Source of the DNA: Cristatella mucedo
Taxonomy: Eukaryota; Bryozoa; Phylactolaemata; Cristatellidae
Length of the DNA stretch: 64,000 nt
Reading direction: 5' to 3'
Assembly: GCA_009760855.2 (NCBI GenBank)
Contig: WPIO01000020.1
Span: forward strand, 3,807,501-3,871,500
Below the pieces are notes generated by a model. The model made no database searches. It was not told the DNA's origin and saw only the letters and a program-made list of their open reading frames with translations. The position numbers were made by a program, and so were the translations under genes. Of this stretch, positions 3,451-51,754 are shown in pieces (position 1 is the stretch's first letter; every line of letters begins with the position of its first letter).

Positions 3451-4107
3451 CTCTGTGCGGCTGTCCACCCGTTTGTACTCTTGTCTGTCTGTCTGTCTAG
3501 CTTTCTCTCCGTATTTGCCTGTCTGACTGCCCTGTCTCTACTTCTGGCAGCAGCTTTGACCATTTGTCCATCCAAAGTGCCAGCCTTAGAGATACGATGC
3601 CATCTACCACTGTGGTCCATTAAGGATGCGCTGAAGCAGTTCTTTGAATAGGGCCCATGAATGCCTCGTGAGGTTCCAAGCTTGGTTTGTTGCATTTGTG
3701 AGACCTGCCGTTGACCTGAACCAAGCTGTCAGGCGACGAAATCGACAGTAACTAAAAACCTAATCGTTGATCAGTGGGCATTCCTGTGTGCATTCGTGTT
3801 GTTGATGCTATGGTTGATTGCATAAATGGCATGTTACCAAGCCTAGGGAGGATGGCTGCACCACTGCCGGCTGCACCACTGTGGCCGGCTGACCTGTTTA
3901 CCGGTTGCCTATGCTTATCTTTCCAGGCACTGTTTTTATTCATTTATCTGCACCAAACGCCAGAGAGCCTCCGGGATAGCAGAGAGAAAATGGTAACAGC
4001 AGTATCACCTTCAAGTGGGCATGGCTGAATCTTAAAACCAGTCCCTTCCAGTCCCTGTCAATCAGTGCTAGCTGCCGGCATCCGGCGTCCTCTCCACGAG
4101 TGAATGT
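3451..4107. other. Unassigned DNA
   Basis: No supported feature apart from a short (CTGT)n at 3482-3499. Confidence 0.4.
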
Positions 4108-9439: not shown

Positions 9440-10905
9440 ACTCAGGTAAAGGCTCTCTTCCTGTTTTGCTTGATCTTTCGGCAGCATTTGATACAGTTGA
9501 TCAAGTTCTTCTTTAGTGCCTCTCATCTCGCCTGGGCATCACTGGCGCTGCACTGCAATCGCTCAGGTTTTATTTCAGTGGGATACTCCAATGTATTGAT
9601 GTGAACGGACATGGGCCATCCACGGAACCACTGAAGTACATGGTACCTCAGGGCTCTGTGCTTGATCCCCTTCTTTTCACAGTTTATACTCCCCCTCTTT
9701 CCGATGGGACCGCCAAGCACAATCCAGGCTTTCATTTCTATCCAAATGACACTCAGTTGTACCTTTGCTTTGCGTTGATCTCTTCCAGCCCTCCAGCACA
9801 TCGAATTCTCTAAACTCTCTTGCTGAATGTATTGCTAACATTTGCACATACATGTCAGCAAATTTTCTCAAATTGACTGGCGATAAAGCCAAATTACTAG
9901 TTATGAGCAAACCAAGTGTGACTCGGAGACTAGAAAGCTTAATGCTCAAAATCGGTTCTCGAGCATATCTCTTGTTGCATCTGCACGAAATCTAGGTGTC
10001 CGCTTCCAAAGTGACTTTTCACTAAATGACCAATCCAGGTCTACAGCCAAGTCTGCCTACATTCAACTAAATACCATTGCTAAAATTCGGGCTTGCTTAG
10101 ACAGGGATACTCAATCCAAATTGGTCCATGGCTTTGTGGCATCCCGTTTCGACTTCTGTAACTCACCACCTGTTGACATACTGGTATGTGCAATCAGGGG
10201 CTTATAGTTGGTGCAAAACTCCGCAGCTAGGCTTATCTGTCGTGAGCTTGGCAGTTGCAAAATTACACCAATTATCACCGACATACACTGGCTCCCAATT
10301 ACGCAGCACATCGACTTCAAGGTTATTTTGCTCACTTTTAGGTGCCTTCATTCTCTGGCTCCAGCCAACCTATCAGATCTACTCTCCCACCAAGATAAGC
10401 ATAATACCACCTACTTATAGGAATCTTATCGTTTACCTATATGTCATATGAGCCTCAAATCCTGTGGAGACCGTGCCTTTAGTTCGTATGCTCCCAAAGC
10501 CTGGAACTCACTTCCGACTTGCATCACGACATTCCTGACTTGACGACATTTAAAAAGAAGCTTAAAGGGCACCTGATTATCACAGAATTTAGTGAGTTCC
10601 TGTGATTTGTCCTTTGTGTGCTTCTGTGGGTGGATACTGTGCATGCTACCACTAAACATATTTGTATTTTGACCCTGTGCATGTCAACTCTAACCATGTT
10701 ATGCTTGTTGACATTGTGTTTGCTACAGCTAATCATTTGATCATGCACTTCTTCTTCACCTCTAACCAAGTCATTCTTGATGACATTATGCATGCTACAA
10801 CTAATTATATGATCATGCTCTCTTTATAGCATATGCAAAGTGCCTAGAAAGAGATTAAGTTCTCTGAGAGTGCTATGCAAATATACTATTCTTATTATAT
10901 ATTAA
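9440..10905 (+). mobile_element. LINE-1f copy A, 5'-truncated and decayed
   Basis: Encodes a reverse transcriptase remnant: LLDLSAAFDTVD near 9466-9500, then VPQGSVLDPLLFTVYT, then FHFYPNDTQLYL. The catalytic YADD has become YPND. The downstream C-terminal region (LVHGFVASRFD; WLPI near 10300; FKKKLKG) lies in different frames, so there are several frameshifts and stops. The 3' UTR contains degenerate repeats of GACA-TGTGCATGCTAC-like units. The 3' hairpin (GTGCCTAGAAAGAGATTAAG, TTCTCTGAGAGTGC) lies at about 10835-10875, followed by an A/T-rich end. Clearly inactive. Confidence 0.9.
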
Positions 10906-38634: not shown

Positions 38635-38792
38635 GAAATCCGGTTGTAGGACATTTCCCCACCTGGACATTTCCCTCCGGACGTTTCCCTCCTGGTGGAC
38701 CCTGGGACTTTTCTATCCGGACATTCCCCCCCCCGGGGTAGGACATTTCCCCCTATGTTGATAAATGTATAACTAAGGATACATACACACAC

Positions 38793-38828
<36 letters not shown>

Positions 38829-39262
38829 CATAAAGTTAACGCTCTATTAAAATAAAAATCAACTCAGTATAATTAGAAGAAAGGATGGATTGGAAGGATG
38901 GTTTCTAATGGAGCGAGCGGCGGCGGCAGCGGCTGCGGCAGCGGCTGCGGCAGCGGCGGCGAGCTATACAGTTCGGTCCCGCTCGACGCCGCTAAGCACT
39001 TGTTCGTACCCGTCAAAGCTGGCACGCTCTATGGCGTGCCGCGCGTTCCTGAAAATGAGCGCCAAGCCTCAGAGGTCCACTGAGTATAACTCGAGCTCAA
39101 GAGATCTAGTTACGCCCTAATATGCACTAATTAAAGCGCTGGATACGAGCAAGGGTGGATTAAACTAAACCCTAAAACCTAAACCGTATACCGGGGGGGG
39201 GGAATGTCCTACCCCAGGGGGAAAGTCGGGGGCCCTCCCGAAATGTCCGTACCCCCGAAATC
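38635..39262. mobile_element. Foldback-like inverted-repeat element candidate
   Basis: The left side holds at least four degenerate copies of GGACATTTCCC (38650-38752). The right side holds the inverse (GGAATGTCCTACCCC and CGAAATGTCCG, 39195-39250). Arms built from short subrepeats are typical of foldback elements. Between them are a (TA)n tract at 38791-38826 and a GCGGCGGCAGC-rich run at 38918-38958. No transposase or clear target duplication was found. Confidence 0.45.
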
Positions 39263-41274: not shown

Positions 41275-43263
41275 CACTCTCCAGGGCATCGAACATGCCA
41301 TAGCTGCTCGCACTGGAGCATGCTCGGCAAAAGAAGCAGCTGATGAGTGCCGATCGCTTCTCTCGATTCTTTGCGCAGAAGATAAACAAGATCAGGAAGT
41401 CCATCCCTGCGATGCTGTTGGCCAATTCCTGGCTGCACCACAATGTCTACATTTAAGCAGGTCACTAGTGATCTAGTCCTGAAGTTCGTATCTCAATCAA
41501 AGAAGACAACAAGTCCTCTGGACTCTATTCCCACTGTCCTGCTCCTACGTTGCATTGATCTGCTGCCACGCATAACTAACATCATAAATATGTCATTAGC
41601 CTCAGGTCATGTCCCAGCACCTTTCAAAAAAGCTGTAGTCAGGCCACTCCTCAAGAAAGCAACACTTGACCAAGAGAACTTGAGCAACTACCGCCCAGTC
41701 TCCCTTCTACCATTCTTATCAAAGACACTGGAACGGGTCGAGGCGGACCAGCTGAACTCATATATCGAAACCTCACACCTTGCTAGTAAGTTCCAGTCTG
41801 GCTTTAGAGCAAATCACTCCACAGAGTCAGCATTGCTTAGGGTATACAACGACCTACTTAGGAATGCAGACATGGGTAGAGTGTCTCTGCTTGTTTTGCT
41901 CGATCTTTCGGCAGCTTTTGATACCATTGATCACAAAGTTCTTCTAGAGCGCCTCTCATCTCGCCTGGGCATCACTGGCACTGCTCTGCAGTGGTTCAGG
42001 TCCTATCTCAGTGGGAGAATCCAGAGTACTGACGTGAATGGACAAAGATCATCTGAAGTACCTCTGAATTATGGAGTACCTCAGGGCTCTGTGCTAGGTC
42101 CGGTTCTGTTCACGGTTTATACTCTGCCTCTTGCTGATGTGATTGCCAAGCACAATCTAGGCTTTCACTTCTATGCGGATGACACTCAGTTGTACCTTTG
42201 CTTTGATCCCTCCCAGCCTTCGAGCACCTCAAATTCTCTCAACTCACTAGCTGCATGCATTGATGACATCCGCACATAGATGGCAGCAAATTTTCTAAAA
42301 CTTAACGATGATAAAAAACTAACTTACTAGTTATGGGCAAACCCAGTGTGGTTCAGAAATTGGAAAGGCTGACGCTCAAAATTGGTTCTGCCAGCATATC
42401 TTCTGTTGAATCAGCTCGAAATCTAGCTGTCATGTTCCAAAGTGACATCTCGTTAGACGACCACATCAGCTCCACAATCAAGTCTGCCTACTTTCAGCTA
42501 CATAGCATTGCTAAAACTCAGGCTTGTTTAGATAAGGATACCACGTCCAAGTTGGTCCATGCATTCGTGACATCCCGTCTCGACTTCTGCAACTCACTGC
42601 TTACTGGCCTACCGGCATGTGCGATCAGGCGATTGCAGCTGGTGCAAAACTCCGCAGCTAGGCTTGTCTGTCGTGAGCGTCGCAGTTGCCACATTACACC
42701 ACTTCTCGCCGACCTGCACTGGCTACCAGTCACGAAACGGATTGACTTCAAAGTTTTGTCACTCACTTTAGGTCACTTCATTCTTTGGCTCCAGCCTATC
42801 TCTCACATCTACTCCCCCACCAGGCCAAGCATCGTACCACCCGCTTTTCGGAATCCAACAGTCTACCAATACCTCGTACAAACCTCAAATCCTTTGGAGA
42901 CCGTGCATTTAGTTCATATGCTCCCAAAGCCTGGAACTCTCTCGCGACTTGTGTCAGAACATCCCCTGACTTGACCACATTTAAAAAGAACTTAAAAACA
43001 CACCTATTTAGGACAGCATTTAGTGGGTCCCTGTGATTCGTCCTTGATGTGCTTATGTGTGCTGACACTGTGCATGCTGCCACTAACCACACTTGCATGC
43101 TGACCCTGTGCATGTCATCCCTAACCATGTTATTCATGTTGTTTATGAAGCATGATATTACTCACCATTCAATAGCGTTTTCATTTGCAGCAAATGTAAA
43201 GCACCTAGAAAAAGATTAAGTTCTCTGAGGGTGCTTTATCAAGTGCATTATTATTATTATTCG
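41275..43263 (+). mobile_element. LINE-1f, most complete copy
   Basis: L2/CR1-clade non-LTR retrotransposon. It is 5'-truncated, with no endonuclease left, and starts in the linker (FFAQKINKIRKSI near 41370). RT, C-terminal domain, 3' UTR, hairpin and (ATT)n follow in order. The hairpin (43196-43240) has stem arms AAAGCACC and GGTGCTTT, where most copies have AAAGCGCC and GGCGCTTT. It moves by target-primed reverse transcription, inferred from family knowledge. Confidence 0.95.
41443..43036 (+). pseudogene. LINE-1f reverse transcriptase ORF, three lesions
   Basis: RT makes cDNA from its own RNA at the nicked target. First block 41443-42279 (278 codons): fingers at residues 60-100 (RPLLKKA, YRPVSLLPFLSKTLER), LDLSAAFD at 153-160, GVPQGSVLGP at 211-220, intact FYADD at 243-247. 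The start Met is only the first in frame; coding enters from upstream. Lesions: TAG at 42280 where other lineage members have Trp, a frameshift near 42315, and a one-base loss near 42768 (TTTA against TTTTA in sister copies). The final frame ends at 43036. The C-terminal half contains LVHAFVTSRLDFCNSLL, ADLHWLPV and FKKNLKTHLF. Confidence 0.92.
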
Positions 43264-51135: not shown

Positions 51136-51278
51136 AGACTCCAGTGCTGATTCAACTCAATGCTAAATGGCTAAATGGCTTGCAGGGAATACATTTCCAG
51201 GTCAGAAGGCTGGAATCAAGGGGAACTGTGTGACTATTACTGAACAGTCATATCGTCGCATTATCTAATCCTTTATTG

Positions 51279-51474
51279 CAGTGGTTCTCAGCCTGTGGGT
51301 CGCAACGCCTTTGACCCCTTTGGGGTTTGAATGACCCTTTCACAGGGGTCACCTAAGACAATCGGAAAACACTCGTTTCCACACTTTGCACACAATAATT
51401 TTATGGTTGGGGGTCGCCACAACACGAGGAACTGTTTTAAAGGGTCACGGCTTTAGGAAGATTGAAAACCACTG
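51279..51474. mobile_element. hAT-type MITE resembling the SPIN/URR1 family
   Basis: A 196-bp element. Terminal inverted repeats: CAGTGGTTCTCAGCCT at the left, CAGTGGTTTTCAATCT (reverse complement) at the right. The flanks CTTTATTG (51271-51278) and TTTTATTG (51475-51482) match at 7 of 8, the duplication length of hAT elements. The interior words (ACCCTTTCACAGGGGTCACC, ATCGGAAAACAC, ATAATTTTATGGTTGGGGGT, AGGAACTGTTTTAAAGGGTC) are those I remember from the SPIN family of vertebrates and some invertebrates. No transposase, so a non-autonomous deletion copy. Confidence 0.88.
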
Positions 51475-51754
51475 TTTTATTGCCTGGGAACTGCATGTCC
51501 CTTATCAGCGACCATCTTTAGCCTGGCTCTATAGAAGAGATTTGTAAGACGTGCTGAGCTTTGATCACATCTTAGCATAAAACCATTATGTGTCATTCAT
51601 CTTGGCTGATTGATTAGGGTGCCCCACATCAGATATTGAGCGATTGGTCATTGGCTCCCTGCAGCAATCAATGAAATGGCAGTGGTAGAAAAGGTGCCAC
51701 TAGATGGAAACCGGCCAAACCACAGTATTTACTTCCAAATAGAGCTGGTGTATC

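Follow-up and report, generated by a model that had tools for sequence, protein, structure and literature searches.

Is the short hAT-like element at 51279 to 51474 of this sequence a member of the SPIN lineage, and how did it come to lie in this genome? The window, by which we mean the whole 64,000-nucleotide stretch analyzed, corresponds to positions 3807501 to 3871500 of contig C122 in an assembly of 572,011,866 bases (572 Mb) in 688 contigs. An initial annotation, made from the letters alone, had proposed a SPIN-like miniature element whose lineage this genome received or shares. We find it very probable that the element is the inactive remnant of a SPIN (Space Invaders) non-autonomous hAT transposon, with a history of horizontal entry, internal deletion, mobilization in trans, a burst of copies, and subsequent drift. 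The comparisons below address first the element and its sister copies, then their relationship to SPIN, their likely source, and the host.

The window element and its sister copies

The 196-bp hAT MITE with terminal repeats that had been proposed proved exact in its coordinates, with ends matching at 11 of 12 positions, and the accompanying 8-bp target-site duplication was confirmed as CTTTATTG and TTTTATTG, which agree at 7 of 8 bases (Table 1). When the window was scanned for 8-bp inverted ends lying 60 to 600 bp apart, with an end match of at least 11/12 and a flank match of at least 7/8, 159 end-plus-duplication pairs were returned; a filter on low-complexity end words reduced these to 2, including the element at 51279 to 51474, and ten windows shuffled in 500-base blocks yielded 0 pairs. 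None of the six reading frames within the 196 bp reaches transposase length, and the element combines the short terminal inverted repeats and absence of coding capacity that characterize non-autonomous hAT elements. A peptide search from the element returned no candidate, and no second copy was found in the 64-kb window, where the remaining blastn matches were of 21 bases or fewer. Rfam gave nothing at the gathering cutoff for the window or for one further locus (L102), and Pfam gave two weak matches, both below cutoff, for 20 further window frames.

Table 1. Coordinates and parts of the window element (positions in the window)
Feature	Positions	Strand	Details
Worn single copy of a SPIN-type non-autonomous hAT element (MITE)	51279..51474	+	196 bp, CAGTGGTTCTCA to TGAAAACCACTG
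5' terminal inverted repeat CAGTGGTTCTCA	51279..51290	+	11/12 versus reverse complement of 3' end; family consensus CAGCGGTTCTCA
3' terminal inverted repeat TGAAAACCACTG	51463..51474	-	family consensus TGAGAACCACTG
Left target-site duplication CTTTATTG	51271..51278	.	7/8 versus right copy; TA at positions 4-5
Right target-site duplication TTTTATTG	51475..51482	.	7/8 versus left copy
9 bp extra in window copy (AACGCCTTT)	51304..51312	+	gap in alignment to genome consensus
Middle of the genome's short form, probable internal-deletion site	51373..51398	+	consensus here GCATTTCCACATTTTGCACACAATAA; 121-152 bp in four longer copies

Other features lie elsewhere in the window. A 473-bp stretch at 38739 to 39211, with inverted ends TAGGACATTTCC and TAGGACATTCCC and flanks CCCCGGGG and CCCCAGGG, is perhaps another MITE. 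LINE reverse transcriptase frames occupy 41443 to 42974, with RVT_1 in the first; their nearest match (P0001) is 95% identical over 62%, and fish, at ∼50 to 60%, make up most of the named entries in the best 120. LINE-like fragments that appear alike by eye occur at 10101, 30600, 33930, 47308, 52044, 53393, and 60155.

Sister copies of the element are present at hundreds to over a thousand places in the genome. The 40 matches scored in a whole-genome DNA search, from 1923 first-look candidates, are the window copy and 39 others that are 83 to 86% identical to it, each spanning 182 or more of the 196 bases of the query. With up to 2 mismatches allowed, the interior word TTTTATGGTTGGGGGTCRCCACAAC is present at 779 places (backward control, 0). 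A pattern made of CTAAGACCATCGGAAAACAC, 13 free positions, and then a non-G is present at 1200 places (backward control, 1), and the 100 of these that were listed are spread over dozens of contigs. On one strand of G000:C155, two SPIN 5' words stand 69 bp apart at 5285870 and 5285939, perhaps reflecting a tandem or nested copy.

Seventy places were examined, of which 63 had both ends and 7 lacked one or both; two of the loci (L095 and L046) were the same place, and dropping one left 62 copies. Three were excluded from the consensus for length: by blastn, L007 and L085 each contain two copies, and the copy in L090 is split. The remaining 59 (38 selected for their resemblance to the window copy, 21 found through an interior word) span 184 to 198 bp, mostly 186 to 189 bp, and yield a consensus of 187 bp with which the window copy aligns end to end. 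Judged by eye, the extra AACGCCTTT in the window copy looks like a worn tandem duplication of the adjoining downstream GACCCCTTT.

The flanks of the 62 copies match at 7 or more of 8 bases in 40 cases and at 6 or more in 46, while controls with swapped flanks gave a mean of 0.74 and a maximum of 5 in 1000 trials. In all 40 good duplications, TA stands at positions 4 and 5 in at least one flank, and 13 of the 40 carry a T2/A7 pattern. The initial annotation had looked for many genomic copies with 8-bp duplications, and this is what the genome contains: hundreds to more than 1000 copies, with TA-centered 8-bp duplications at those examined.

Identity with SPIN and the longer forms

Our SPIN/URR1 reference, URR1 being the mouse and rat name for SPIN non-autonomous elements, is a provisional sequence, written down after the window copy had been seen, and is not a Repbase or Dfam consensus. 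Aligned to this provisional sequence, the genome consensus agrees at 178 of the 186 aligned bases and leaves 40 gap positions in the middle; for the window copy, the agreement is 168 of 186, with 49 gap positions. There are 13 end-block sites at which the window copy differs from the provisional SPIN, and at 12 of them the genome consensus sides with the provisional sequence, which indicates that the latter was not copied from the window. SPIN/URR1 gave an interior score of 178; two further hAT MITEs, with references that are likewise provisional, scored 21 and 15, the level of shuffled sequence. Identity to the provisional SPIN/URR1 reference extends through the interior (178/186) and is clearly better than that to the two other hAT MITEs (178 versus 21 and 15).

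Published vertebrate DNA was represented by one mouse copy and three mouse primers. The mouse genomic copy printed in PMC8376875 is identical at 67 of 81 columns (83%) over the element's last 81 columns, with a score of 90, or 55 once the last 20 bp of the element are excluded (controls, ≤32 for both). Two mouse Ate1 primers in PMC2767504 correspond to element positions 1 to 19 (18/19) and 56 to 75 (18/20), and a mouse Kcnq1ot1 primer in PMC6221546 matches over 18 consecutive bases. Given the interior score of 178 and the alignment of the mouse copy beyond the terminal 20 bp, we rejected a match limited to termini of 15 to 20 bases. Most of the sequence words had no occurrence in the literature text searched; one occurs in PMC2837401, and a 14-letter match in an octopus paper, which lay inside a synthesized sequence labeled SYT1, was taken as chance.

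Some copies retain more of the element. Five of the 100 listed CTAAGACCATCGGAAAACAC-pattern places run on into ...TTCCGA; a fold-back or inverted-dimer reading of these was set aside, as the four that were measured are longer SPIN forms. A word specific to such longer forms is present at 46 sites in the genome (backward control, 7). Ten longer-type loci were taken (L114 to L123) and nine measured, and the middles of these nine align with the provisional vertebrate SPIN middle at 100/111 columns in L115, 90/111 in L116, 86/111 in L117, 89/110 in L118, 113/133 in L119, 116/134 in L120, 92/113 in L121, 156/182 in L122, and 89/106 in L123. The corresponding scores are 107 to 234, versus shuffle maxima of 25 to 37. 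Five were measured from end to end, at 295 bp (L117), 305 bp (L121), 321 bp (L120), 484 bp (L123), and 553 bp (L122), and target-site duplications match at 8/8 in L123 and at 6/8 in L122 and L117. These forms of 295 to 553 bp are rarer than the 187-bp form.

Since the SPIN middle persists in the longer copies, the 187-bp form most plausibly arose from a longer SPIN by internal deletion. The junction word of the provisional vertebrate short form was found nowhere in the genome at up to 3 mismatches, while the vertebrate SPIN middle does occur in the longer copies, so that only the junction word is missing. Its absence suggests that short forms arose by separate deletions in vertebrates and here.

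The missing junction could also be taken to mean that the copies belong to a different invertebrate hAT MITE family having only the generic CAGTGGTTCTCA end in common with SPIN, and such termini are common to many hAT MITEs. We consider this very unlikely, since the provisional SPIN is matched almost completely except across the deleted middle, the interiors of the two other hAT MITEs, which have these same ends, score at shuffle level, the alignment to the mouse copy holds when the terminal 20 bp are disregarded, and the SPIN middle is present in the long copies. That the genome holds a member of the SPIN lineage, as first proposed, is supported by the interior identity to the provisional sequence and by the mouse copy; receipt of that member by horizontal transfer is what we infer from the arguments that follow.

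Source, age, and proposed mode of entry

SPIN has been placed in the Buster family, and the target duplication of TcBuster is nnnTAnnn (PMC3499496). All 40 good duplications in this genome agree with that Buster target consensus, and the central TA of the 8-bp duplication fits the Buster subfamily, which holds SPIN. The SPIN copies here resemble TcBuster in their TA-centered 8-bp duplications, but TcBuster is an autonomous insect element, whereas no transposase was found for this family in the loci examined.

In searches for a source, the hAT C-terminal dimerization domain matched 138 of 150 candidates scored, and DUF4371 matched 46 of 150, many of them interrupted by stops. Blastn with the consensus found no SPIN ends in L009 to L038, L058, or L108 to L113, as far as these loci reach; L109 contains a single 17-base internal consensus match. 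No transposase with SPIN ends was found in the loci examined, which include 7 of the 46 longer-form places, none read past ∼800 bases. Six loci with Buster-type domain remnants (L108 to L113) were considered as autonomous SPIN but showed no SPIN ends over the stretches examined.

A young hAT family (L009 to L038 and L058) accounts for 63 of the 138 domain matches, at 69 to 78 bits, with the next match at 45. Sixteen of the 63 lie in open frames of 635 to 642 amino acids, and the loci compared are mostly >99% identical. This family was probably active recently. Its ends (approximately TTAGGGCTGTACCGG) are not those of SPIN, and it was rejected as the driver of the SPIN copies.

The mean Kimura two-parameter (K2P) distance to the consensus is 0.071 over all copies, 0.085 for the 21 copies chosen by an interior word, and 0.064 for the 38 chosen by likeness; the window copy stands at 0.098, or 0.063 without CpG. 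The burst is old, its copies lying ∼7 to 8.5% off the consensus, in keeping with the initial impression of a worn copy, for which a transfer would not be very recent. With assumed neutral rates of 1 to 3 × 10^-9 per site per year, from which the host's own rate may differ, this drift would correspond to an age of tens of millions of years.

We propose that a SPIN element entered an invertebrate lineage by horizontal transfer and that internal deletion then gave rise to short forms keeping both ends, mainly of ∼187 bp and rarely of ∼295 to 553 bp. A SPIN-type (Buster subfamily) hAT transposase would have cut and pasted these short forms in trans into TA-centered 8-bp targets, the signature of which the copies display. 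With the source presumably extinct and the burst over, the copies have drifted by ∼7 to 8.5% from the consensus, and the window copy has additionally gained 9 bp. No match to SPIN words or DNA was found in viral contigs, prokaryote genome contigs, plasmids, phages, or Escherichia coli.

Vertical inheritance of SPIN from the common ancestor of vertebrates and the host invertebrate would accord with the occurrence of hAT elements of this set in chordates, arthropods, molluscs, and flatworms (PMC4344730, PMC5440852). However, the copies have drifted by 7 to 8.5% from a consensus that nearly equals the provisional vertebrate sequence, and unselected noncoding DNA would not be expected to stay alike for more than 500 million years. 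We therefore regard vertical descent as highly improbable and favor horizontal entry.

The host and SPIN in other animals

COX1 on the mitochondrial contig (C688; 21,008 bp) contains TGA 11 times and TAA and TAG never, and the vertebrate code would turn the 8 AGA/AGG codons of this gene into stops. Several of these AGA/AGG codons fall where other animals have Ser, in agreement with the invertebrate mitochondrial code. There is next to no chance that vertebrate DNA (e.g., from mouse) contaminating the assembly is the source of the copies: although SPIN is found in several mammals, including murine rodents (PMC5857283), one interior word lies at 1200 places, the 100 listed falling on dozens of contigs, the copies are individually diverged and have their own deletion form and a C at consensus position 4, the provisional vertebrate short-form junction is missing from the genome, and COX1 would have 8 stops under the vertebrate mitochondrial code.

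Among the best 120 of at least 8000 COX1 matches scored, the closest is 96% identical; of the named entries, molluscs are nearest, followed closely by nemerteans, an annelid, and insects, at 81 to 85%. In a single-gene COX1 tree of 35 rows, the query and the 96% match lie apart from the molluscs, nemerteans, and Owenia that were included, with support that is modest (SH-aLRT, 83). The order nad1-nad6-cob-nad4L-nad4-nad5, read from frames on one strand of C688, also occurs in chitons and phoronids. The host is probably a lophotrochozoan. A search of the genome for the mollusc hemocyanin domain gave no match, and its control likewise gave none. Within C688, the same frames appear in both orientations (L106:3075-3365; L107:1632-1922 and 3747-4037), and nad2 and cox2, as read from frames, lie on the strand opposite the other genes read.

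The host may, at less than even odds, come from a lophotrochozoan phylum other than Mollusca and Platyhelminthes, such as brachiopods, phoronids, nemerteans, or annelids. We know of no SPIN report for such a phylum, and if true, this placement would widen the known range of a horizontally spreading element. SPIN is among the foremost cases of a transposon moving between phyla, and few invertebrate hosts appear in the literature consulted. Approximately 1000 datable copies, together with several deletion forms, offer a fresh point for tracing its timing and origin, and a short form that does not have the provisional vertebrate junction suggests that such MITEs are born separately in different hosts.

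Compared with tetrapod SPIN non-autonomous elements, including URR1, for which our reference is mostly provisional, the copies here have the same ends and both interior flanking blocks, and the longer forms share the SPIN middle. They differ at element position 4, which is C in the genome consensus and T in the provisional SPIN and the mouse primer, and in their dominant form of 187 bp, which has an internal deletion of its own; the junction of the provisional vertebrate short form is absent. SPIN entered several mammals 15 to 46 million years ago (PMC5857283). Related hAT elements are described in Rhodnius and Lymnaea (PMC4344730, PMC11614815), and in Biomphalaria glabrata a hAT that shows significant identity to SPIN is present in ∼1,000 copies, with no intact transposases detected (PMC5440852). 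Since SPIN-like elements have already been reported in Lymnaea, Biomphalaria, and Rhodnius, the conclusion that this genome is a further host of a known element, not the source of a new kind, is well supported. By description, a close parallel is the SPIN-like hAT of B. glabrata, likewise in an invertebrate host, with ∼1,000 copies and DNA transposons that are not recent (PMC5440852). Rhodnius prolixus, with SPIN_NA (PMC11614815; fewer than 5 SPIN copies in piRNA clusters, which is not a genome count), and Lymnaea stagnalis, with its hAT (PMC4344730), are, again by description, comparable invertebrate hosts of horizontally transferred hAT elements.
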